Assembly (NCBI GenBank): GCA_021790335.1
Contig: JAJYEE010000018.1
Location: 1-56,470 of the forward strand
DNA from: Pseudomonadota bacterium
GTDB taxonomy: Bacteria > Pseudomonadota > Gammaproteobacteria > Acidiferrobacterales > UBA6901
DNA: 56,470 bases
Direction: 5' to 3'
A program made the translations under genes and the position numbers. Below, in pieces: positions 1-11,529 of this stretch. The number at the start of each line of letters is the position of its first letter. Position 1 is the first letter of the stretch. The notes under the pieces are model-generated. The model worked only from the letters and a program-made list of their open reading frames with translations, ran no database searches and was not told the DNA's origin.

Positions 1-41
1 CCGCAGGACAGTGTTGTTGAATGATCCGGGTCCACGTAAAG

Positions 42-58
42 ACTAAGGAATCCTTAGT
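42..58. promoter_or_regulatory. Palindromic candidate operator upstream of the XRE regulator
   Basis: ACTAAGGA-A-TCCTTAGT is a perfect 8-bp inverted repeat around one central base. A related half-site CTTAGTC recurs at 107-113, and a second small inverted repeat (CAAGG/CCTTG) spans 113-130. The repeats lie 45-130 bp before the start of the small helix-turn-helix gene. XRE-type repressors commonly bind such dyads in their own promoter region, so an autoregulatory operator is the natural inference. No matching -35/-10 pair was convincing. Confidence 0.4.
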
Positions 59-174
59 ATCCTGTCAAGCCGAATCCGACGATCATCCTGCCTGGATTCA
101 GGAACTCTTAGTCAAGGAATGGAACCCTTGAGTAACGAGGGGATACACCAGTATCGACACTTGGGATCGCGCGA

Positions 175-501
175 ATGACCGGCAAGACATCACCGATCGC
201 AAAACGTCTCAAGGAAGCCCGTACCCGGGCGGGGCTTTCGCAAAAACAGCTGGGCATCAAAGCCGGCATCGACGCGTTTTCGGCGAGCCCGCGAATCAAC
301 CAGTACGAGACCGGTAAACACAGGCCGGATTTTGCGACGGCACGGCGTCTGGCGGATGTGCTTCGCGTGCCGACCCCGTTCCTGTATGCCGAAGACGATA
401 CGATGGCTGAAATGCTTTTGCTGACCGGCGCACTGTCGCAACGAGACCTGAGAAAGCTGCTCAAGGAGCTTCGAAGGCGCGTGGCTGCTTCCCCGCAGTA
501 G
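175..501 (+). CDS. Small XRE-family helix-turn-helix transcriptional regulator
   Basis: This 108-residue protein has a single Cro/CI-type HTH domain over about residues 8-70: KRLKEARTRAGLSQKQLG, then an INQYETGKHRPD recognition region and the typical LADVLRVPTPFLYAEDD end. The last 30 residues (LRKLLKELRRR) are basic and helical, possibly for dimerisation. It should act as a cytoplasmic DNA-binding repressor. It is monocistronic and points toward, but is separated by about 280 bp from, the convergent leftward pair ending at 783. It may regulate itself through the palindromes at 42-130. The insertion SAS in the middle of the HTH (AGIDAFSASPRINQYETG) is seen in a subset of these regulators. Family assignment is firm; the target is unknown. 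Confidence 0.85.
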   Translation: MTGKTSPIAKRLKEARTRAGLSQKQLGIKAGIDAFSASPRINQYETGKHRPDFATARRLADVLRVPTPFLYAEDDTMAEMLLLTGALSQRDLRKLLKELRRRVAASPQ

Positions 502-782
502 ATTCGAAGGACCGCTCCGCTCTGAGACCTGCCAAATGCCCAAGGAGTGCAACTCGGCCTAAGCAAACGGTCAAGCATCGAAAGATCAACGGCCGCTGAC
601 AAGCGCTAACCCGCCGAATTTATTGTCCGGACGCTTGTATCTGGAACTCCACACGTCACGTACTCCGTTTGAAGCAGGGCATATTGAAAGCTGCCCACCG
701 AGGCGACCGGCGCCCGTCAGTGCAGGGCCAGCGGACGCACAAAGCATACTTTTGCCGTCCTACTTCACGCTGGGCTAATCAG
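502..782. other. Gene-free spacer between convergent genes
   Basis: About 280 bp separate the XRE regulator from the end of the HEPN gene on the other strand. I see no credible ORF, tRNA or T-tailed hairpin here. Confidence 0.6.
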
Positions 783-1427
783 CTATGTGGTCACCCGCCA
801 TGGCTTGTAGTTTCCAGGCGTTGCAGAAACCAACAACTCCGAAACCGCATTGTCGCATTCAACGGCGGTGGCGTCGATCAACGTTCGGTAACTCTGTAGT
901 TCCCCAATCTTGATGTAATCAGCGTCGCGGCCGCGATGCGCGATGTCGCCACGGACACCAACAAAATCATTGATCGTGTCTTTCCCGCATGACCAGTGAT
1001 CAGACAGCCTTTCGAGTCCAATAGCACGCAAATACAGTTCATCGATTGGCCCTGCTTTGGGGGTATTGATCGCACCGCAAAGTTCTCTTACATGTGTGAC
1101 AAGGACTTGTTTCCATCCATCACCTGCGAATTCAAGGGGCTTCAATTCATGCTTGGATTCTCTGGCCACCTTAGCTAATTCCTTTTGAACCCGACGCGGC
1201 AATTGGTCAGGAGATTGGCACTTGTCACAAAAATAATTTGCGGCTTCCACGCAGAGGGATTCAAGGTAGAGTTCCCACGCAGCGCAGAGCATTACCACAC
1301 CACTACGAGTGATATGCCCGAGGCCCTTTTTGCCAGGGCTTCCGTCATGCAACTGACCATGGCTTTCAATCAATCTATCGACATCGACAATGTTGCCGCG
1401 GAACGCCAGTATTGAGGAGGATGGCAT
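783..1427 (-). CDS. HEPN-domain protein (RiboL-PSP-HEPN type), putative RNase
   Basis: This 214-residue protein has the pattern of the RiboL-PSP HEPN group. An N-terminal helical region contains LCAAWELYLESLCVEAANYF (44-66), and a C-terminal helix pair ends in NDFVGVRGDIAHRG. R159-G-D-I-A-H164 is a textbook R-x4-H HEPN motif, which in active members forms the RNA-cleaving site at a dimer interface. HEPN proteins are found in toxin-antitoxin, abortive infection and other anti-phage systems, and also as non-catalytic RNA-binding proteins. The gene follows a 148-codon gene on the same strand after a 108-bp gap, so the two may form a unit. The Shine-Dalgarno sequence is weak. Fold and motif are seen directly; the RNase role is inferred from the family. 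Confidence 0.7.
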   Translation of the reverse strand: MPSSSILAFRGNIVDVDRLIESHGQLHDGSPGKKGLGHITRSGVVMLCAAWELYLESLCVEAANYFCDKCQSPDQLPRRVQKELAKVARESKHELKPLEFAGDGWKQVLVTHVRELCGAINTPKAGPIDELYLRAIGLERLSDHWSCGKDTINDFVGVRGDIAHRGRDADYIKIGELQSYRTLIDATAVECDNAVSELLVSATPGNYKPWRVTT

Positions 1428-1535
1428 AGTGGCTAAACCACCAGCTGTGCGACTTTTCGCGCGGGAGGACGTGATAATGGGTTTAACATCAATTCATCTA
1501 TCGCGCAATCGGGATCAATTTGATTGTGACGATGG

Positions 1536-1982
1536 TTATGAGTGAACATATTTCTCGATGAGAGGTTGTCCCGATTTTTGGTCATAGATTGCGAATACGT
1601 ATTGATCCCCTGGCAGGGTTCCATAAAACATTTGAATTTGTTGCTTGCAGTCATCAATATGCAATCGCGCGTCGGAACAGGTCGAAACCCAAACTCGTAT
1701 ATCTGCGCGAGCTTGTATGAGTTTCTGAAAGTCGCCATCAATGTCAGGGTGCCGCTTGTTAAGTTCTGACTCTAAAACCATTGCCATGTGAGTGAGAAAT
1801 TCGCCTCTCTCGTAGCGCTGTTGTGTATACCATGACAAGTCATATAGCCATCCAGAAATGACTTCATGGCCTAAATCGCGTCCTAGCTGTTTAAAGATAT
1901 TTATAATTGCCTCTGTGCCAGAGCGGCCTTTCCAAACTGGAATCCTGCGTGCGGCTTCCATGATCTTGTCAATGTCACTCAT
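1536..1982 (-). CDS. Uncharacterised 148-residue protein, possible restriction-endonuclease-like fold
   Basis: I do not recognise a named family. A GGGAGG ribosome-binding site sits about 7 nt before the ATG, so this is a real gene. The order of features, WLYDLSWY (45-52, Asp48), MVLESELN (68-75, Glu71 and Glu73), DFQKLIQARADIRVWV (84-99) and a late DQYVFAIYD strand, resembles the D...E-x-E/K spacing of PD-(D/E)XK nuclease-like proteins of unknown role in bacterial accessory regions. That fold is an inference from pattern only. It is first in a leftward pair with the HEPN protein, 108 bp apart, and both sit between an XRE regulator and an IS110 stub. A partner, antitoxin or second effector role is possible. 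Confidence 0.6.
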   Translation of the reverse strand: MSDIDKIMEAARRIPVWKGRSGTEAIINIFKQLGRDLGHEVISGWLYDLSWYTQQRYERGEFLTHMAMVLESELNKRHPDIDGDFQKLIQARADIRVWVSTCSDARLHIDDCKQQIQMFYGTLPGDQYVFAIYDQKSGQPLIEKYVHS

Positions 1983-2149
1983 GTGATGCCTCCCATGCTT
2001 TTAAGCGCATTCCCATCATTGCCTACGCCGCAGTCTTCTTCAGCGTGGCCGTGACACCCGTTGCCGATTAGTCGAAGCAGTTGAGACTGACGCAATCGCT
2101 GAACCGCGCTGGAAGTCCCTCCTCTTTGTTGCGGTCCTCCCGCTGTATT

Positions 2150-2377
2150 TATTGTTCACGTGCTTGATGGCGTGTCCGAGTTGCTCAGGCTTGTGTGCCC
2201 AGCGGCGGACGCTGCCGCGAGTCTTCATGCCGATGGGCAGGGTTCGAGTTTTCCGAAAAGCGGCGGCACTTGCCCGTGCTAGAGCTGCTTTTCTGGTATC
2301 GTCTCGCCCCGTCCTTCCATACCATGCACCTGGATCATGCTCTTTGCTAGGTCGAGTCCCGCGGTTGTAATCTTCAT
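2150..2377 (-). pseudogene. IS110-family transposase, 5' remnant
   Basis: From an ATG at 2377 with a GAGGAGG ribosome-binding site, the minus strand reads MKITTAGLDLAKSMIQVHG, the N-terminus of IS110-family DEDD transposases, including the first catalytic Asp in GLDLAK. The frame stops after about 32 codons. The homology resumes through a frameshift as IGMKTRGSVRRWAHKPEQLGHAIKHV, which matches the next conserved segment (IGMEACGSAHHWARELxxLGH in relatives). The remainder of the roughly 340-residue transposase, including its C-terminal Ser-containing region, is absent. It is a decayed mobile-element stub marking the right edge of the accessory patch. Confidence 0.7.
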
Positions 2378-2860
2378 CGGTCGCCTCCTCTTCAGGTTGA
2401 GTGAAATTGATCCAACTTCACCCTGGCACTTTCGATGCCGTATCGGGAGGGGCGACCTGCGTGGCGATTTTTGGATCATGTGACTTTTGATGAATATTAC
2501 CGCACCTCCCTGAGAGTCTGGTAGCCGACGAACTGCGGACGGATTGCATAGTGAGCTCCAGCGTCCGCTTCGGCCGACAACCGGGCGTTCAATGCAATCT
2601 GAATCGCCCCGGGGCGGTTCAATCTCACGACCGAGTGAGATGGACCCAAGGTCAAGGGTTTTCTGGCACCGGCAGCGAGAGACATACCGGGTCCGCTGTG
2701 GATTTATTGAAACAAACTGGAATCACTAACCTCTCCCGGGCACTGGAGTAGCACCCGACCAAGATCATCCGCGATGCTCGCTGCAGCCCGCGACCGGGGG
2801 AAAGTAAAAATGCGCTGGATCAGCATCGCTGGCGCCAGGCGCGGATGCGGCATAGGCAAC
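2378..2860. other. Spacer with no recognisable gene
   Basis: About 480 bp lie between the IS110 stub and the AraC-type regulator. Short overlapping ORFs exist on both strands, but none resembles a protein I know and none has a convincing ribosome-binding site. The segment probably consists of residue from the insertion. Confidence 0.5.
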
Positions 2861-2888
2861 TTGACGTATTTTGTTTGTTTTGTACTAA
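2861..2888 (+). promoter_or_regulatory. Predicted sigma-70 promoter of the GlxA/AraC-type regulator
   Basis: TTGACG (2861-2866) and TACTAA (2883-2888) are separated by 16 bp. The predicted start of transcription falls at about 2895, directly at the ATG at 2896, so the message may be leaderless. This promoter lies inside the alternative longer reading from 2845, which argues for the shorter start. Confidence 0.5.
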
Positions 2889-2895
2889 TACAGAC

Positions 2896-3876
2896 ATGCG
2901 AACGTTCTTGATTATCGTCCCGGAAGGGGGGCTGTTATTCGAGCCGACGGGCATCGCCGACATCCTGGTACGAGCCAGTCGTTTGCAATCGAAGGGCGTA
3001 TACGAGGAACTCTACCAGGTGACGATTGCCGCCAGCCAACCTCATTGCGTGATACGTGGGGCATCGGGACTGAACCTGCTGGCGCACCATCGTCTGTCGG
3101 ACCTTGACCCCGAGCTTGAGCGCGACACCATCATGATCGTGGGAAAAGGATCGTCCGAGGAGGAAAGCGTTTGCATTGCGGATTGGATACGCCGTGCAGC
3201 ACCCAAGGCACGGCGCATCGTTTCGGTCTGCGGCGGGGCCTTGCTCCTGGCCCGGACCGGCCTGCTCGATGGCCGCCAAGCCACTACGCATTGGCAGCTG
3301 TTGGACACACTGCAATCATGTTTTCCCAAGGTGAAAGTCCAAAAAGGGCCAATATTTGTCCGCGATGGGTCACTTTGGACTTCAGCCGGAGCCAGCTCGG
3401 GCTTCGATCTTACTTTGGCGCTCGTCGAGGACGACCACGGTTTTGCCCTGGCACGCGATGTGGCCCAAGACCTCGTCTTGTTCTTGCGTCGGCCTGGCGG
3501 ACAGTCACAATTCAGCCGCTATCTTCTGAACCAGGCCAAAAAACCTGGTCCGATCCGCGATCTCCAGTCGTGGATCCTCGAGAATCTCGCCGACAATCTG
3601 TCAGTCGCGAACCTGGCGGATCGCGTTGCCATGAGCCCGCGCAACTTTACGCGCGTGTTCACCCGAGAGACGGGCACTCCTCCAGCCCGATATGTGGAAG
3701 AGGCACGTCTGGATGCGGCCAGGCAACGCCTGGAACAAAGCACGGACTCTATCGAGCAGATCGCGGCGACCATGGGGTTCGGAAATGGCCTCAACTTACG
3801 CCGTGTGTTCGAAAAAACCCTGAAGATCACGCCTACGGAATATCGCCAACGGTTTTGTTCCCGCAGCTTGGCGTAA
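2896..3876 (+). CDS. GlxA-type transcriptional regulator (DJ-1/PfpI domain plus AraC HTH)
   Basis: This 326-residue cytoplasmic regulator has two domains. Residues 1 to about 185 form a DJ-1/PfpI-like amidotransferase fold, with the nucleophile-elbow sequence VSVCGGALLLARTGLLDG and the ATTHW motif typical of GlxA relatives. The last 90 residues or so form an AraC-type double HTH (NLSVANLADRVAMSPRNFTRVF and IEQIAATMGFGNGLNLRRVF). Such proteins usually sense small nitrogenous or catabolic ligands and activate nearby genes. I chose the ATG at 2896 because the protein homology begins at MRTFLIIVPEGG and a promoter precedes it immediately; an in-frame ATG at 2845 would add 17 atypical residues. 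GAPDH starts 82 bp downstream in the same direction; a regulatory link is possible but unproven. Confidence 0.88.
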   Translation: MRTFLIIVPEGGLLFEPTGIADILVRASRLQSKGVYEELYQVTIAASQPHCVIRGASGLNLLAHHRLSDLDPELERDTIMIVGKGSSEEESVCIADWIRRAAPKARRIVSVCGGALLLARTGLLDGRQATTHWQLLDTLQSCFPKVKVQKGPIFVRDGSLWTSAGASSGFDLTLALVEDDHGFALARDVAQDLVLFLRRPGGQSQFSRYLLNQAKKPGPIRDLQSWILENLADNLSVANLADRVAMSPRNFTRVFTRETGTPPARYVEEARLDAARQRLEQSTDSIEQIAATMGFGNGLNLRRVFEKTLKITPTEYRQRFCSRSLA

Positions 3877-3958
3877 CTTGATCGTTTATTGTCGTTTGCG
3901 CCATTCCTTACTCATGTTAGTTTCGATTCAGGACAGATAAATAACTAAGGGGTTCGGC

Positions 3959-4969
3959 ATGGTAAAAGTAGGAATCAATGGATTCGGCAGGATTGGTCGC
4001 AATGTCCTTCGCGCGGCCTTAGGGCGAAGTGAATTCCAGGTTGTTGCCATCAACGACCTGACGGACAGCAAGACCCTGGCCCATCTCCTGAAATACGATT
4101 CGCTGCTGGGCGTCTTGTCGGCGAAGGTCGAAGCCGGCGAAGGCCAGTTCATGATTGATGGCAGGCCCATCCGGGTCTTCTCGGAAAAGGATCCCGGGTC
4201 CATCCCATGGAAAAGCGTGGGCGTCGAGGTCGTGATCGAGGCCACCGGCTTGTTCACCGACAAGGCCAAGGCCGAGGCGCACATCACCAAGGGTGGCGCG
4301 AAGCGAGTCATCATCTCCGCACCAGGGAAGAACGACGACATCACCATTGTGATGGGAGTCAACCATGACCGATACGACCCGGCGCTCCACAAGGTAGTCA
4401 GCAACGGCAGCTGTACCACCAACGGCCTTGCACCGGCAGCCCAAGTGCTCCACCAGACCTTCGGCATCGAGTATGGACTGATGAACACCACCCACGCCTA
4501 TACCAACAGCCAGGCCTTGCACGACCAGCCGGAAAAGGATTTGCGAGGAGCCCGGGCTGCAGCGCTCTCGATCGTTCCTTACTCCAGCGGAGCGGCAAAA
4601 GCCATCGGCAAGGTCATCCCGGAACTCGATGGGCGCCTGACTGGCTACTCCCTGCGGGTTCCGGTTCCGGTCGTCTCCGTCGTCGATTTGTCAGTCACTC
4701 TGAAGCGCGAAGCTACGGCAGCCGAAATCAATGCGGCATTTCGCCAGGCTGCGGAATCAGGTCCGCTGCGGGGCATTATCGGTTATAGCGACGAGCCACT
4801 GGTGTCGTGCGATTACAAGGGCGATCCGCGTTCATCCATAATCGACGGGCTCTCCACTCTCGTCATCGGCGGCAAACTCGCGAAGATCCTCGCATGGTAC
4901 GACAACGAATGGGGCTTTTCGAACCGCCTTATCGACCTGGGCCTGTTGATGGAGAAACACGGGCTGTAA
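3959..4969 (+). CDS. gap: Type I glyceraldehyde-3-phosphate dehydrogenase
   Basis: This 336-residue enzyme converts glyceraldehyde-3-phosphate, NAD(P) and phosphate to 1,3-bisphosphoglycerate in glycolysis, gluconeogenesis or the Calvin cycle. The N-terminal Rossmann motif GINGFGRIGR is intact, and INDLTD with Asp33 suggests an NAD preference. The active site SNGSCTTNGLAP places the nucleophile at Cys152 and the general base at His178 (NTTHAYT). The C-terminus has the usual WYDNEWGFSNRL. An AAGGGG ribosome-binding site precedes the ATG. No pgk, tkt or fba gene is adjacent, so it is transcribed alone or with the upstream regulator. It does not resemble the arsenate-linked GAPDH variant. Confidence 0.96.
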   Translation: MVKVGINGFGRIGRNVLRAALGRSEFQVVAINDLTDSKTLAHLLKYDSLLGVLSAKVEAGEGQFMIDGRPIRVFSEKDPGSIPWKSVGVEVVIEATGLFTDKAKAEAHITKGGAKRVIISAPGKNDDITIVMGVNHDRYDPALHKVVSNGSCTTNGLAPAAQVLHQTFGIEYGLMNTTHAYTNSQALHDQPEKDLRGARAAALSIVPYSSGAAKAIGKVIPELDGRLTGYSLRVPVPVVSVVDLSVTLKREATAAEINAAFRQAAESGPLRGIIGYSDEPLVSCDYKGDPRSSIIDGLSTLVIGGKLAKILAWYDNEWGFSNRLIDLGLLMEKHGL

Positions 4970-5166
4970 CCGCCAATCGGTGCGAGTCAGGTCGTTCTCT
5001 CGTCAATTATATTGCCAGATACCTGCTTTGGTCAGCTGAGCTGCCAGATTCCGATGCGGGACGAGTTGTCCGCATTGGCCGAGGACCCGCCGCTGAATAG
5101 TGTGCGCCCACCCGTCAGCGATAGCCGAGATAGCGCATTGGCTCCTTTTCCTGCACAAGCAAGCTA
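4970..5166. other. Spacer downstream of gap
   Basis: No recognisable gene or terminator. The segment leads into the 20-bp repeat at 5167 that marks the integrated-element remnant. Confidence 0.5.
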
Positions 5167-5186
5167 TGCTGTAATCCTGCTGTAAT
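5167..5186 (+). repeat. Left copy of a 20-bp perfect inverted repeat
   Basis: TGCTGTAATCCTGCTGTAAT occurs here, and its exact reverse complement occurs at 6860-6879. Each copy is itself a tandem pair of the unit TGCTGTAAT(CC). The two copies bracket the TraD-like fragment and the integrase gene. Further bases do not match. Arm-type integrase binding sites or the ends of a decayed element would look like this. Confidence 0.75.
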
Positions 5187-5304
5187 TGTGTTGCGCTCCA
5201 GTGCGCCATGATACATTTCGATGCATGGCAACGTTATTTCAGATCAGGTACTTAGGTGCATGGAGCCGCACGACAATGCATCGTTTGGCGATTGGCGATC
5301 AGCA

Positions 5305-5614
5305 GCTGTCGCGTCGGGTGCAAAGCGAGGGATCCGGTGTCGGCGGGTCGCATTCCGGTGAAAGCGAGCAGATCAGCATCGAACGGGTGGTGCTGCCGTC
5401 GGAGATCGCGGGGCTGCGCGATCGGTGCGGATTTCTCAAGCTCGCGGGAGATTTTCCGATCGCGCGGGTCGAGATTCCGATCCCGCCCGCGCGGGCGGAG
5501 GTTTGCCGGCCGTTCGTGGCAGCGGCGACCGGGGTAACCGCGCCGGAGCCTGCGGCCCCGCCGGCGGGCGTGTCGAGCGCGGTCGCCGATCTGGGTCGGC
5601 GGATGAGGTCGTGA
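5305..5614 (+). pseudogene. VirD4/TraD-type coupling protein, C-terminal fragment
   Basis: The reading frame contains VVLPSEIAGLRDRCGFLKLAGDFPIARVEIPI. This resembles the conserved end of type IV secretion DNA-binding coupling proteins of the TraD class (LLPSEIxxLxDLxGYLKLxGDxPVAxV). A Pro/Ala-rich tail follows and a stop at 5612-5614. The large ATPase domain with the Walker motifs is missing, so this is a truncated remnant. The same frame is open from 5186, but the upstream part looks unrelated. It sits next to a tyrosine integrase and a tRNA gene, consistent with the wreck of an integrative conjugative element. The assignment rests on one conserved segment. Confidence 0.5.
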
Positions 5615-5809
5615 GTGATTGTGGTCACCCCCGCCGTGCGAATTGGAACGCCGGCTGGGCGCGCTGGCGGCGCAGGAATGTCGGCTTTACCATTTCTTCC
5701 GGAGGCTCATCGAAGTCCCCCAGTTGTTATCGTTGTGGCTCCGATGAACGACGTCCGCTGCGGTGCCTTCCGCATCGAACCACGCTGCAATCTTTGAGGA
5801 ACGGCAGTG

Positions 5810-6802
5810 TCAGCCGATCAACTCGACCAGATCCTCTGCCCGCAGGTGCGTGTAGCGCTTGAGCATCTGCAAGGTCTTGTGTCCGGTGATCGCCGCCACT
5901 TGCATGGGATTGAGCCCCTTCTCGAAGAGCCGCGAGGTCGCCTCGTGGCGCAGGTCGTGGAAGGTCAGGCCTTCGACACCAGCGGTAGCGCAGATGCGTT
6001 CGAACGCCTGGCTGATGGAATCCGGGCGCATCGACCACACCGCTCCGTCCAGCCGGCGGGGCAGGTCATCGAGGACCTGCAGGGCGCGCGACGACAGCGG
6101 CACCCGCCGGCGCGTGCCGGTCTTGGTTTCGGGTACTAGCAACACTCGGACCTTCCGGTCTGCATGCTCCCAGCGCATGGCAGCGATCTCGCCGCGACGC
6201 ATGGCGGTCTCGATGGCCCAGGGGATGAGGTGCTGGATTTCGCCGCCGTAGGTCTTCGCGGCTTCGATGAGACGGGATTCCTCATCTTCCACGAGCCGCC
6301 TGCTCCGGGCATTGGCAGTGCGCGGAATGCGCACGTCCCGAACGGGATTCCCGAGTGACGCCATGCCCCATTCCTGGCGGGCTATGTTGTACAGATGCGA
6401 CAGCAGGGCAAACCGGTTCCGCACCGTCGCCGGCGTCGCTTCACCGAGCCACGCATCGCGAACTTTGGCGAGGTCGTGACCCCGGATGCCGGCCAGCGGA
6501 CGCGACGCGATAGCGCTCTGCCGCCAGGCTGACGCGACCGACGCTTCGGCAGCGTGCCCCCTCTTCTTTGCCGACACTTCCCGTCCATAGCGCTCCAGAG
6601 CCTCGCTGAGCGAAGTGCTCTCCGCCTCTGTCCGCGAGACGAACTCGCCCCGGTCCATTTCACTCTCGATTTTGCGAGTCCAAGCCTCGGCCTTGGCTTT
6701 GGAATCGAACGTCCGAACCTGCGCGGAATATCCGCGCCGGCGGATGTGCGCCTGCCAGACGCGCTTGCCCGCCGGACCCTTACGCGGAATGAACGATGCC
6801 AT
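5810..6802 (-). CDS. Tyrosine recombinase / phage-type integrase
   Basis: This 330-residue integrase would catalyse site-specific recombination of a mobile element. It has an N-terminal Arm-binding-like region (ASFIPRKGPAGKRVWQAHIRRRG), a core-binding SAM-like domain and a catalytic domain. Catalytic residues are visible as ETAMRRGEIAAMRW (Arg I), TFHDLRHEATSRLFEKG (His-x-x-Arg), TGHKTLQMLKRYTHL (His and the Tyr nucleophile). The ATG at 6802 is chosen because GGAGGG lies 8-13 nt upstream; an ATG 12 codons earlier lacks a site. The gene begins about 120 bp from a tRNA-Arg gene, the classic integration target. It appears intact although its neighbours are eroded. Confidence 0.9.
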   Translation of the reverse strand: MASFIPRKGPAGKRVWQAHIRRRGYSAQVRTFDSKAKAEAWTRKIESEMDRGEFVSRTEAESTSLSEALERYGREVSAKKRGHAAEASVASAWRQSAIASRPLAGIRGHDLAKVRDAWLGEATPATVRNRFALLSHLYNIARQEWGMASLGNPVRDVRIPRTANARSRRLVEDEESRLIEAAKTYGGEIQHLIPWAIETAMRRGEIAAMRWEHADRKVRVLLVPETKTGTRRRVPLSSRALQVLDDLPRRLDGAVWSMRPDSISQAFERICATAGVEGLTFHDLRHEATSRLFEKGLNPMQVAAITGHKTLQMLKRYTHLRAEDLVELIG

Positions 6803-6859
6803 GATGTGCCCTCCATCAGTGGTTATCTGTGGGGGCACTCTACCCGGTTTTGGAACCGG

Positions 6860-6879
6860 ATTACAGCAGGATTACAGCA
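6860..6879 (-). repeat. Right copy of the 20-bp inverted repeat, next to the integrase start
   Basis: This is the exact reverse complement of 5167-5186. On the plus strand it reads as two tandem GGATTACAGCA units (6858-6868 and 6869-6879), and a further half-unit TTGCTGTAAC lies at about 6904. Its place between the integrase start and the tRNA suggests integrase or excisionase binding sites and could also overlap the integrase promoter. Confidence 0.75.
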
Positions 6880-6925
6880 AACTCGGGATCCGGGCGATGT
6901 TGATTGCTGTAACACTTTGATTTAT

Positions 6926-7002
6926 TGGCGCGCCCTAGAGGATTCGAACCTCTGACCTTTGGAATCGGAATCCAACGCTCTATCCAGCTGAGCTAAGGGC
7001 GC
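6926..7002 (-). tRNA. tRNA-Arg (anticodon CCG)
   Basis: The minus strand folds into a complete cloverleaf. The acceptor stem is GCGCCCT/AGGGCGC, the D-arm GCTC...GAGC, the anticodon stem TTGGA/TCCAA with loop TTCCGAT (anticodon CCG, reading CGG), the T-arm AGAGG-TTCGAAT-CCTCT, the discriminator G, and the CCA end is encoded. The length is 77 nt including CCA. The 3' end faces the integrase gene, as expected for an attachment site. I did not find a second copy of the tRNA 3' end in the window. Confidence 0.95.
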
Positions 7003-7810: not shown

Positions 7811-8255
7811 GTGCGCCCGGCACGGGCGCACTCTTGTGGGTGTGACTCCCGCCGTAAGCTGATCACAACGAGCGTAGCGAAGCGCAACTGCATGAGGGCG
7901 ACCGAGTGTGGGGAGGAAGCGTGGAGCGAAGCTGCGAGCCGATGGACAAGAACCGCATAGAAGGCGAAGCCTCGCAGGGCGAGCGGGCATGAAACCGCGA
8001 AGCTCTCGTGATCAAGGCGAGGTCGGCGTAAATGCGGCGGTTGTGCAGCGAAGGAGTGCGTTCTTGCCCGGGGAGATCTCGCTTTGCGCCTGAAAGGGTG
8101 ACGGTGTCGAACCGCAAGCGAGAAGTCAGCAGAGGCCGTAGTAGCTGCCCGTACGGGGCGAAGGGCCGAACGAGGGGAAGTGCTCAAGACCATGCCGATG
8201 CACCGAGCAATGTGTCAGATGCCCGCGCAAGCGGGGCGGTCCGGGGCGGCGGGCG

Positions 8256-8618
8256 GTGAAGCCGCACGCGACGGGGACGGATCGGCTGATCCAACAGGCA
8301 CTGCTGCAAGGGCTGCAACCGGTTCTGGATCCCCCCTTCAGTAAGCACAGCTACGGTTTCCGCCCTGGGTGGCGCGCGCACGATGCGGTATTGGCCGCGC
8401 AGTCGCACGTGCGACTGCGGGCGCACAATCGTGGTGGATGTTGACCTGGAAAAGTTCTTCGACCGGGTCAGCCACGACATTCTCATTGACCGCCCGCGAA
8501 GGCGCATCCCGGGCGCCGGAGTAGTTCGGCTGATTCGTGCGTATCCCGATGGCGGAATCATGGGCGATGGCGTGGTGCAGCGCCGGTACGTGGGCACGCC
8601 GCAAGGCGGCCCTCTCAT
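8256..8618 (+). pseudogene. Group II intron reverse transcriptase, N-terminal part (broken)
   Basis: One frame reads DRLIQQALLQGLQPVLDP and KHSYGFRPGWRAHDAV (RT blocks 1-2). A frameshift near 8420 then leads to VVDVDLEKFFDRVSHDIL (block 3, with the first catalytic Asp) and YVGTPQGGPL (block 4). Reading stops at the inserted element after GGPL. The first 80-100 residues of a normal intron RT are missing or out of frame. It continues after the insertion at 10857. Confidence 0.8.
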
Positions 8619-8634
8619 GCCATGGACACAAAAG
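8619..8634 (+). repeat. Left terminal inverted repeat of the serine-recombinase element
   Basis: GCCATGGACACAAAAG pairs perfectly with 10841-10856. If two or three flanking bases are included (CATGCC against CACGCC) the match extends with one mismatch. The recombinase reading frame runs through this repeat without a stop. Confidence 0.8.
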
Positions 8635-10279
8635 GTAATTTTTATCCGACCCCGTTTTATCTACAGATCCAGAGACGTTCGACGAACTCGGATTGCCGCC
8701 GGATCGTACCGCGTTGGGGATCGAATGACGAATCGTAATGCGGTCATGGCCGACCACCACCTCCTTCACGAGCAGTCGCGCAATCCGTTGACGCTCCCGC
8801 ACATCAAGGGTTTGGGCATGGGCACGCAGACTTTCGAGAAAGGCCGACAGCGTTTGCGCCAGGCGTAAGGTGGTGGCCTGATCCGCCACCTGGGTTTGCA
8901 ATGTCGCAAGCTCCGTGTGCAGACGCTGCTCACGGCCACGAAGTTCCGGCATCCGCCGGTGCAGTTCATCCAGCGAGAGCAACTCCTCCTGATACGCCGA
9001 CAAGAGTCGCTCCATGCGTTTGTTGGTCTGCACGAGTTCCCGGTGTAACGTCTCTTCGCGACGCTTGATCGGACTGGAGTTACGCGCGCACTCAAGACGT
9101 CGGTTTAGCTCGGCCTTGATCAAGGTCGGATCTTCGAGCAAGCGCATGAGCTCGCGCCACACGAGGGGTTCGAGTAAATCTTGGCGGACCGGACGCTCGG
9201 TACAGCGCGCCTTGCCTGCATAGCGCCACGCATCCGAGCCCAAGCAACGGTAGTAATAGATTTTGCGCGCACTCGATCGCGTGGCCGTACGGTACCATGC
9301 ATAACCGCAATGACGGCAGTGCACGAGTCCCTGCAAGATGGCGGGTTCAATCGTTCGACGGGCCGAGAGTTTCTTGTTTATGGCTAAACGCTCTTGGGCT
9401 AACGCAAAGGTCTGCTCCTCGATCAAGGCGGGTACCGCGATCTCGATCCACTGCTCCCGCGGCACCTCGTGACTCGCGCTGTTGCGTGAGGGCAGGCTCC
9501 CCCGTTGGCGTAGCGCGCGATTGTTGGTGCGCGTGCGTGCGGCGGGTTTTGTCTTGCCGAAGCAGGCGGTGCCTTGATAGGCCGGGTTGCGCAGCATGGC
9601 CCACACCGTGGAGCGTTCCCATTGAGCGTGGCACTTCTGCGTCGGCACCCCGCGTTCGTTCAATCGGCGCGTGACCCCCCCCGATGCTTAAGCCCTCACG
9701 GGTGTACCACGCATACGCCTGGCGGACCACGTCGGCTTCGGCCTCGATAATCTCGTAGAAACCCGCGTGCTCATCGGTCTTGCGTATATAGCGATAGCCG
9801 TAGGGTGCGCCGCTTAATACACTGACCTCCCCTTGGCGGGCCCGATGGAGTTTGCCGCGGCGTGAGCGCTCCAGAATCTGGGCGCGTTCATATTCGGCGA
9901 TCATGCCTTGGAATTGCACCAACAGTTGATCTTCGGGCGAGCCCGAGTGCGGGCTGTTTTTAAAAATGATCTCGACGCCGTGACGCGCGAGATCCTCCAT
10001 CAGCAACACCCGGTAGGCATATTTGCGCGAGAGCCGATCGGGCGAGAGCACCAACACGGCTTCGATCTCGCCCGCGGCGGCGAGATCGCGCACGCGCTCA
10101 AGCCCCGGGCGCACGAGGTTGGAGCCGCTGTACCCCTCGTCTTGGAAGATCCATTCATCCGGTACGGCAAAGCCTTCGGCTCGAGCGAATTCCACCAAGG
10201 CGGCCACTTGGCTCGCAATCGTCTTTTCTTCCTTCTGTTGATCGGAGGATACCCGGGCGTAGAGGGCGGCGGTCTTCAT
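8619..10279 (-). pseudogene. Large serine recombinase, frameshifted
   Basis: The N-terminal half starts at 10279: an intact resolvase domain with TAALYARVSSDQQ (catalytic Ser in RVSS), SPDRLSRKYAYRVLL and AEYERAQILERSRRGK. The recombinase domain is split by one extra base in a run of eight C (G8 on the coding strand) at about 9675-9682. The other frame continues with TRRLNERGVPTQ, RNPAYQGTACFGK, a zinc-ribbon-like HCRHCGYAWYRT and a long coiled coil, to IRHSIPNAVRSGG. Joined, this gives a protein of about 550 residues, normal for the family. There is no stop before the left terminal repeat; the frame runs on antisense through the RT to 8338. With seven G the gene would be intact, so a sequencing error or slippage cannot be excluded. 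Confidence 0.85.
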
Positions 10280-10430
10280 CGATGATTCCTTGCGGGGCGG
10301 GATTCACGCCAACGCGGCGTGTCTGATCGGGGACGAGCAGTGCATAGACGCACTCGAGTTTGGTGGCCAGCAGACGGTCGAAGACGTACTCCAGATGGAC
10401 GGGATGGCCGGGGGCGCGGCGATCAGCCAC
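10155..10430 (-). CDS. Possible small ORF between the RHH protein and the recombinase
   Basis: A GTG at 10430 overlaps the stop of the RHH gene (GTGGCTGA), which would allow translational coupling. The first 50 codons (HLEYVFDRLLATKLECVYALLVPD) read like a real protein. The frame continues to 10155, overlapping the recombinase start by 125 bp, and that tail looks like shadow sequence. It may be a short gene whose original stop was lost. I do not recognise a family. Confidence 0.35.
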   Translation of the reverse strand: MADRRAPGHPVHLEYVFDRLLATKLECVYALLVPDQTRRVGVNPAPQGIIDEDRRPLRPGILRSTEGRKDDCEPSGRLGGIRSSRRLCRTG

Positions 10431-10752
10431 GGCCTCGTGCCTGAGCAATAAATCGCAATACCGCCCGCGCCACCGTCTCGCCGATCGTGAGCCCACTTCG
10501 CTGCGCGTAGGCCCGCAGTTTCGTCACCACGTCGCTGGGTACCTTGATCGTCATGGGAATAGTGGGGATGGGCACTTCCATCGGGTGTTTGAGGTGCTGT
10601 GCCTCGTTGAGGTAACGGTAGGCTTGGCGCAACGAGAGACGAAAGCGCTTGACCAATATGTCGGCGGCCTCGTTGGGGGAGTATTCCCGGTTGATCAGAT
10701 CGAGGGCGGCATTCAGCCGTTGCGTTTTTTCGGCGAGGGTCGATCGGGCCAT
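10423..10752 (-). CDS. HTH/ribbon-helix-helix regulator of the recombinase element
   Basis: This 109-residue protein has an N-terminal helical segment (STLAEKTQRLNAALDLI and NEAADILVKRFRLSLRQAYRYL, HTH-like). Its C-terminal segment, TIPMTIKVPSDVVTKLRAYAQRSGLTIGETVARAVLRFI, looks like a CopG/Arc ribbon-helix-helix with strand IPMTIKVP. It should bind DNA, probably as a regulator or accessory factor of the serine recombinase encoded downstream. It is preceded by a strong promoter (10761-10789) placed so close that its mRNA would be nearly leaderless. The gene is intact although the recombinase is frameshifted. Confidence 0.7.
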   Translation of the reverse strand: MARSTLAEKTQRLNAALDLINREYSPNEAADILVKRFRLSLRQAYRYLNEAQHLKHPMEVPIPTIPMTIKVPSDVVTKLRAYAQRSGLTIGETVARAVLRFIAQARGRG

Positions 10753-10760
10753 ATGTCATA

Positions 10761-10789
10761 TATATATTACCTCTTGCGCCGCAAGTCAA
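10761..10789 (-). promoter_or_regulatory. Predicted promoter of the element's RHH-recombinase genes
   Basis: On the minus strand, TTGACT (10784-10789) and TATATA (10761-10766) are separated by 17 bp. The ATG lies 9 bp after the -10 box, predicting a leaderless or near-leaderless transcript. Confidence 0.6.
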
Positions 10790-10840
10790 GGACCGATAAC
10801 GAGCGGTTCAATTTCACGTCGCGGTCAAACTCGAAGTTCG

Positions 10841-10856
10841 CTTTTGTGTCCATGGC
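10841..10856 (-). repeat. Right terminal inverted repeat of the serine-recombinase element
   Basis: CTTTTGTGTCCATGGC is the exact reverse complement of 8619-8634. RT homology resumes a few bases later at CTCTCGCCGCTGCTG. Confidence 0.8.
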
Positions 10857-11475
10857 GTGCTCTCGCCGCTGCTGGCCAATGTGCTGCTTGATGAGGTGGA
10901 CAAGGAATTGGAGCGCCGCCACCATCGCTTCGTGCGTTATGCCGATGAACGCAACGTGTACGTGCGCAGCCAGAAAAGCAGGCGAGCGGGTAATGGCATT
11001 GCTGCGGCGTCTGTACGGCCGGTTGCGCCTAACGGTCAATGAGTCCAAAAGCGCGGTGGCAGACGTCAAGGGGCGCAAGTTCCTGGGCTATTGCTTCTGG
11101 TTCGCCAAAGATGAGGTCAAACGGGTCCGAGAATTGACCCGACGCAATGGCGGGCGCAGCATGCAGGAGGTCATCGAACGGTTGCGACCTTACCTGCTGG
11201 GCTGGAAAGCCTACTTCGGACTGGCGCAAACGCCGGGTGTGTGGCGTTCGCTTAACGAATGGCTGCGCCACCGTCTGCGCGCTATCCAACTCAAGCACCG
11301 GAAGCGCGGGACGACCATGTACCCGGCACTCTGTCCCCTGGGGGGGGCTCGCCCCGCTGTGGTCCGGCGAATCGCTGCCAACAGCCGCCGATGGTGGCGC
11401 AACAGCGGTCTGTTGCTCAACGGCGTCTTGGACTTGGCATGGTTCGACCGTTTAGGCCTGCCCCGTCTCTCTTGA
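10857..11475 (+). pseudogene. Group II intron reverse transcriptase, C-terminal part (broken)
   Basis: The sequence resumes the RT with LSPLLANVLLDEVDKELERR and RFVRYADERNVYVRSQK (RT block 5). The catalytic YADD is changed to YADE. A frameshift follows near 10970. The next frame encodes VMALLRRLYGRLRLTVNESKS, RKFLGYCFW, the thumb and the maturase X region (LRPYLLGWKAYFGLA, LNEWLRHRLRAIQLKHRKRG), and ends LGLPRLS. With the N-terminal part and its frameshift this RT cannot be functional. Confidence 0.85.
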
Positions 11476-11529
11476 CCTTAACCCTCTCGAACCGCCCGGT
11501 GCGGCGGCGCAATTTTTCGAAGCCCGATA

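Follow-up and report, generated by a model that had tools for sequence, protein, structure and literature searches.

Organization of the locus

The stretch of DNA analysed here (hereafter the window) is 56,470 nucleotides long, and its position 1 is a contig end. Close to this end, two genes lie one behind the other on the minus strand. The upstream gene (1536-1982) encodes a 148-residue protein of a rare family and the downstream gene (783-1427) a 214-residue protein of the HEPN_RiboL-PSP family (Pfam PF18735), a predicted RNase; the intergenic gap (1428-1535) measures 108 bp. The coordinates, strand and spacing agree with the original prediction, and the residues on which it was built are in place: D48, E71-S72-E73 and D84-F-Q-K-L88 in the 148-residue protein, which together with K87 within the last stretch recall a PD-(D/E)XK nuclease, and R159-G-D-I-A-H164 in the HEPN protein, an intact R-x4-H motif. 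A ribosome-binding site had been proposed for the first gene, and GGGAGG is indeed found six bases 5' of its ATG. By eye, no Shine-Dalgarno-like site was seen in the sequence upstream of the HEPN start, where GTGG-TTTAG-CCAC ends one base 5' of the ATG. The two genes are unlike in GC content (44.5% and 51.2%), and the window as a whole has 60.1%. Open frames of at least 148 residues arose in 0.45% of 2000 shuffles of a 700-nt stretch. Since such a frame is rare in shuffles and tblastn detects a relative of its product (E 2e-5), the 148-residue frame is more than a chance open reading frame.

The flanks of the pair are as described earlier. On one side lies an XRE-type regulator on the plus strand (175-501; Pfam HTH_31, 6e-11). 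This gene is convergent with the HEPN gene and therefore outside its operon, and was not considered part of the system. It resembles the restriction-modification control protein of PADLOC (Control_protein, 9.9e-27), and restriction genes may sit past the contig end. On the other side, a minus-strand fragment (2279-2479) corresponds to the N-terminal part of a transposase that we take, by eye from its motif, to be IS110-like. This stub had no Pfam match at E 1; in a two-sequence comparison it was 38% identical over 21 residues (E 6e-4) to a like fragment at L065, the locus of a HEPN relative in genome G439. Further on, the segment 2845-4969 encodes an AraC/DJ-1 regulator and GAPDH and is followed by a tyrosine integrase on the minus strand (5810-6838; Pfam Phage_integrase, 3.1e-27), which adjoins a tRNA-Arg(ccg) gene (6926-7002).

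The two genes are cargo of an element integrated at tRNA-Arg

The locus had been described as lying in an otherwise core chromosome, and this proved wrong. The 3' 48 bp of tRNA-Arg(ccg) (6926-6973, minus strand) form an attachment-site copy that is repeated exactly on another contig of the same genome (C87, 3239-3286), and we take this repeat as the other end of the element. A sister genome, G237, is 92-94% identical to the present genome in the flanks of the element. It matches the window from 6924 rightward (92%), and about 550 bp beyond its own tRNA-Arg (L033 2314-2390) a match to C87 from 3718 on sets in (94%). To the left of 6924, no match to the window was found in the stretches fetched from G237 and two further genomes (G236 and G238), save a few bases at the repeat, and both the 148-residue and the HEPN gene were not found in G237. 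The site in G237 is thus a near-empty site without both genes. The integrase at tRNA-Arg, the 48-bp repeat and the near-empty site together identify the pair as cargo of an integrated element (positions 1-6973 here), which also contains the AraC/DJ-1 and GAPDH genes and extends beyond the contig end. Two observations are left unexplained by this reading: a second, partial tRNA-Arg copy on G237 contig C53 (L034 11267-11315; 96% match to the 48 bp), which is perhaps the end of another element, and some 5.1 kb between tRNA-Arg and the flank in G236.

Other features were noted near the integration site. A perfect 20-nt inverted repeat (5167-5186 and 6860-6879) may represent arm-type integrase sites. 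Between about 8175 and 11500, two frames that by eye resemble two parts of one group II intron reverse transcriptase (8383-8868 and 10360-11475) flank a serine recombinase split over two frames (8338-10279); from 7816 to 11497, only 8124-8174 was matched in the G237 stretch.

The HEPN protein and its relatives

Proteins of the HEPN superfamily are generally dimeric, metal-free RNases. The 214-residue protein matches PF18735 with E 2.2e-13 and 51 bits (cut-off 28.4), and R159 and H164 are invariant in all six aligned relatives, its own row included. On the basis of family and motif we infer that it has RNase activity. A search of 398 genomes from the phylum found PF18735 in 54, the present one among them (43 above the cut-off), and it was found in none of 14 control genomes; the HEPN protein itself was found in none of 59 other relatives. 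Neighbouring genes were inspected at 30 of the PF18735 loci, one of them our own.

By identity, the closest relatives found are those of G439 (54%), G334 (47%) and a P. aeruginosa plasmid (34%), followed by G325 (31%) and a Streptomyces plasmid (28%). A profile search in 237 genomes of the order of G439 matched 14 of them, and full-length matches in one piece came only from G439 and G682, the other 12 being in parts and scoring at most 49 bits. The G682 protein was found with the profile of the window protein's group (284.8 bits). Neither the HEPN protein nor the 148-residue protein, nor the profiles made from them, gave a credible sequence match in the PDB.

Several other neighbours of PF18735 genes were recorded. 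A VWA-domain protein lies beside the HEPN gene at L043 (by Pfam) and L046 (by likeness to L043), and a ParA-like protein at L058 (by Pfam) and L064 (by likeness to L058). Beside the plasmid HEPN genes of L004 and L005 (about 5872-6527), a small gene on the opposite strand carries R-N-D-L-V-H and is perhaps a second HEPN-like gene; this second small gene had no NCBIfam match.

DUF262-linked and solo HEPN genes

A recurring protein of about 360 residues is encoded directly upstream of the HEPN gene at 14 of the 29 other genome loci. Five of these 14 proteins were run against Pfam, and all five contained the GmrSD_N (DUF262) domain. The distance between the two genes, measured for 10 of the 14 pairs, ranges from -32 to +100 nt; eight of the ten overlap or abut and one has the 100-nt gap. 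A profile of the 14 proteins retrieves those 14. It found no partner in the 56-kb window at E 0.01 and none at L065, L066, L067, L099 and L004 to L007, which are loci of HEPN relatives; the five closest relatives have no DUF262 protein nearby. Because the partner adjoins the HEPN gene at all 14 loci that have one, its lack in the window is informative even with an element that passes the contig end.

The same division is visible in a tree of 26 HEPN sequences, in which six rows that we labelled as solo (the window protein and those of G439, G334, the P. aeruginosa plasmid, G325 and the Streptomyces plasmid) are parted by one change, at modest support, from 12 DUF262-linked rows (74/82; 80% of bootstraps). 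Eight rows in neither group were not counted and may fall among the solo rows, as does L062, which has overlapping neighbour genes on both sides. The tree leaves out L044, L045, L051, L060, L061 and L063, the plasmid copies L005 and L006, and the later-found G682. None of its starred branches contains the window row; the joining of the window row with G334 and G439 (support 83/99) is the only one that comes near, and long branches make the details unsure.

DUF262 and PF18735 are both listed for the defence system PD-T4-2 in PMC10952713, which lists PF18735 for three other systems as well, and T4 plaqued more on the native strain of PD-T4-2 once this system had been deleted (Vassallo et al. 2022, PMC9519451). 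The connection of the HEPN protein with phage defence made in the original prediction is therefore upheld by its intact motif and this listing, and the link of the window protein to PD-T4-2 is one of domain. The likeness consists in a HEPN domain of the same Pfam family and in the DUF262-HEPN pairs seen here at 14 loci. In contrast, the window contains no DUF262 protein, has another gene in the upstream place, and encodes a HEPN protein without a PADLOC match. The latter trait is shared: a scan of ten HEPN relatives, of which six are DUF262-linked or PD-T4-2-like, gave no match to the HEPN models of PADLOC and one weak match to SIR2. Of the 14 DUF262 partners, the one run against PADLOC matched NsnA (1.9e-66) and, more weakly, PD-T4-2_A (1.7e-33). 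The window protein also belongs, by Pfam name, to the RiboL-PSP-HEPN family of Anantharaman et al. and keeps its active-site motif. However, the entry for this family in PMC3710099 gives a fusion to endoRNase L-PSP and an operon with ParB, neither of which is seen in the window.

A small family with a plausible nuclease fold

Five sequences from four loci, its own included, were found for the family of the 148-residue protein. A tblastn search of 72,556 plasmids returned a single record, the Allochromatium vinosum plasmid pALVIN02, where two copies lie in tandem (E 2e-5). A DNA pattern of the shared motifs led to a prophage contig, at whose edge lies a gene that itself matches pALVIN02 (E 7e-4). 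The fourth locus is a gene of G655 (profile E 1.2e-11), the one match among 234 genomes of another order. Six residues, W45, Y47, D48, W51, K87 and L88, are invariant in all five rows (W-x-Y-D-x-x-W...K-L). E-x-E is kept in three of the five (window, prophage and G655), and the two pALVIN02 copies have QxE and ExV; E-x-E is a variant found in BamHI as well. With 148 residues against 175-197 in its four relatives, the window copy is the shortest, and about 10 residues are missing just before W-L-Y-D.

All other searches for this family were negative. The protein had no match in Pfam, NCBIfam or PADLOC at E 1 and none better than E 0.019 in PHROGs. It was not found in 184 other genomes of the class or 56 other genomes of the order, and family profiles found no other genome among 397 at E 0.001, the only match being one of 31 positions at E 0.08. 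In 50,697 phage records, tblastn found nothing for either the window protein or its prophage relative. Peptide-pattern scans of genome and viral contigs yielded no confirmed relative, a second DNA pattern was without matches, later viral scans returned only the same prophage, and the prophage gene had no DNA match in E. coli genomes. At the prophage locus (L010 1-3301), the family member overlaps a small gene whose product resembles MarR proteins weakly, with scores under the Pfam cut-off, and there is another small gene like it at 2987-3301.

A structure prediction of the 148-residue protein, suggested along with the original prediction, reached a pLDDT of 47.6 at best and was unusable. For the prophage relative, the best of five models has a pLDDT of 62.5 and a pTM of 0.60 (the other four, pLDDT 44-49). 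In this low-confidence model the elements follow each other as helix, three strands, helix and strand, which is the order of the PD-(D/E)XK core. Structural alignment matched it to the restriction enzymes BglII (Z 6.4), OkrAI (6.2) and BamHI (6.0) and to a chain of the CinA-CinB complex (5.8), yet an unrelated acetyl-CoA carboxylase domain tied at Z 6.4. The top Foldseek match in the PDB was this same domain, from the yeast enzyme (E 8.8e-4), and not a nuclease, and in a viral structure library a PD-(D/E)XK nuclease came first (E 4.5e-3). Because all Z scores are under 8, these matches count as support and not as proof. Given the element order and the restriction-enzyme matches of the relative, the nuclease fold proposed originally is plausible. 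The likeness to BamHI, BglII and OkrAI resides in a low-confidence model of a relative and not of the window protein; against it stand the lack of a sequence match and the equal score of the carboxylase.

No co-occurrence of the two families at the loci examined

The original prediction had joined the two genes into a functional pair and had named co-occurrence of the two families elsewhere as a test. No member of the 148-residue family was found beside any of 33 other HEPN genes (up to about 1.5 kb per side at 29 genome loci and 5 kb per side at 4 plasmid loci; frames of at least 60 residues), and the pairing is therefore not supported. As a control, the same scan recovered the window's own copy with E 1.8e-63. 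Apart from this copy, profile matches were no better than E 0.47, and BLAST gave at best E 0.11, over 38 residues; both values are chance-like. Longer stretches of G439, G334 and G325 contained no family member (best E 0.11), nor did the G682 locus by tblastn (best E 0.42). Conversely, no HEPN gene below E 0.7 was detected at the three other loci of the 148-residue family, searched over the whole of pALVIN02, a 10.6-kb prophage stretch and a 19.5-kb stretch of G655; the prophage gene is at a contig edge and its scan covers one side. With only five family sequences found, the absence is weak on the side of the 148-residue protein, and the claim of pairing is strongly lowered but, given this small sample, not killed.

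HEPN relatives in integron arrays

The closest HEPN relative found, that of G439, is a single-gene integron cassette. Two attC sites (L065 10590-10706 and 9849-9923) enclose it, and its array adjoins the gene for an integron integrase, IntI (TIGR02249, 396.8 bits; cut-off 265). The HEPN gene of G682 is also part of an array next to such an integrase gene (397.3 bits) and is directly preceded by an attC site (L099 9413-9505); a site after it is possible by eye and was not listed by the pattern search. Integrons are already known to stock phage-defence genes (PMC12444791), and an integron HEPN protein, PDB 3jrt, is named in PMC3710099. This entry was absent among the matches of a PDB profile search with four of the HEPN proteins described here. 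The G439 array contains further genes with a likeness to defence proteins at L065 7351-9824, one SIR2-like (Aga_SIR2, 1.4e-6) and one LmuA-like (3.1e-9).

The gap in the window contains an attC-like, unproven arrangement (TCATAAC...GTTAAAC, 1481-1541) that spans the stop codon of the 148-residue gene, as does one site of G439. On a home-made score it reached 10.5, compared with 9.75-11 in four control regions; in one of these, the region after the G682 HEPN gene, the best-scoring arrangement differs from the site seen by eye. Three gaps were tested with this score. The value was attained in none of 300 shuffles of the gap, in 0.47% of 3000 Markov copies and in 4 of 1348 half-overlapping real segments of 160 nt, and the top scores of 40 shuffles of 2300 nt, taken with slightly looser spacing, had a median of 10.0 and a 95th percentile of 11.5. 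TAACAA and GCGTTA, invariants of the reference attC sites, are missing, and the extra base is on the opposite arm from that in three G439 sites. The site folds weakly, with z values of -1.5 and 0.2 for its two strands, where two reference sites gave -2.6 and -3.2. No attC-like site follows the HEPN gene of the window, and no TIGR02249 match above cut-off was found in its genome, which is 97.6% complete. The site before the HEPN gene is only suggestive. With its invariants missing, its fold weak, no site after the HEPN gene and no integron integrase above cut-off, we do not claim it as an attC relic or the HEPN gene as an integron cassette.

The HEPN gene of the window thus resembles integron-cassette HEPN genes through two relatives in integron arrays, and differs from them in a genome without an integrase above cut-off and a window without a proven attC site. 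It is possible, though we consider it rather unlikely, that both genes are former cassettes, each a one-gene phage-defence device, which left the integron and were captured together by the tRNA-Arg element, and that the attC-like site separating them is a relic of this past. Such an origin would likewise take the HEPN protein as a solo RNase and the 148-residue protein as a new, small PD-(D/E)XK family.

Two solo genes or one system

The lack of co-occurrence at the loci examined and the unlike GC content lead us to take the pair as two solo genes. Most probably they are two separately acquired mobile cargo genes of the tRNA-Arg element, one encoding a solo HEPN RNase and the other, independent of it, nuclease-like. 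In such a scheme a trigger, most likely phage infection, would activate the HEPN protein, which would cut RNA through R159 and H164 and so stop growth or phage production, by analogy with the action proposed for the related AbiF/AbiD proteins. It would do so without the DUF262 partner that many of its relatives have. The 148-residue protein, small and PD-(D/E)XK-like, would act on DNA without a partner; its relatives are tandem paralogues on a plasmid, a gene at a prophage end and a chromosomal gene.

Against two solo genes speak the shared strand, the 108-bp distance and the position of the 148-residue gene in the upstream place of DUF262; together with the lack of a visible Shine-Dalgarno site for the HEPN gene, they make co-transcription and dependence possible. 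The same features suit a true two-protein defence system, in which the 148-residue protein, in the place of DUF262, would license the HEPN RNase upon sensing or nicking foreign DNA. Strand and order would be those of the DUF262-HEPN pairs, one of the ten measured pairs has a gap of 100 nt, and combinations of a DNase with a HEPN protein are described in PMC3710099. We nevertheless regard this as unlikely, since the families were not found together at 33 other HEPN loci or at three other loci of the 148-residue family, with the closest HEPN relatives lacking such a neighbour and the two genes unlike in GC, and with eight of ten DUF262-HEPN pairs overlapping or abutting where here 108 bp intervene. 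A small gene upstream of a HEPN gene on one strand would also fit a toxin-antitoxin pair in which the 148-residue protein neutralises the RNase. However, this protein matches no Pfam, NCBIfam or PADLOC family, MNT antitoxins included, the HEPN relatives examined are without such a neighbour and the 148-residue family occurs without HEPN, all of which make an antitoxin role very improbable.

Alternatively, the two genes could be decaying cargo without a present function. The adjoining IS110 stub, the HEPN gene without a Shine-Dalgarno-like site, and a 148-residue protein shorter than its four relatives, with the residues before W-L-Y-D gone, would all be in keeping with relics, but both frames are open and have kept their conserved residues, and decay too seems an improbable account of the locus. 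A two-part system, if true, would have been new, and the evidence does not favour it. Two separately acquired solo genes, the reading that we prefer, point instead to PF18735 HEPN genes without a DUF262 partner, which stand beside the proven PD-T4-2 type and of which the copies in two genomes lie in integron arrays, and to a small nuclease-like family, as yet without a name, whose members are dispersed over mobile elements. The HEPN gene and the 148-residue gene are each suited to easy single-gene testing for phage defence.
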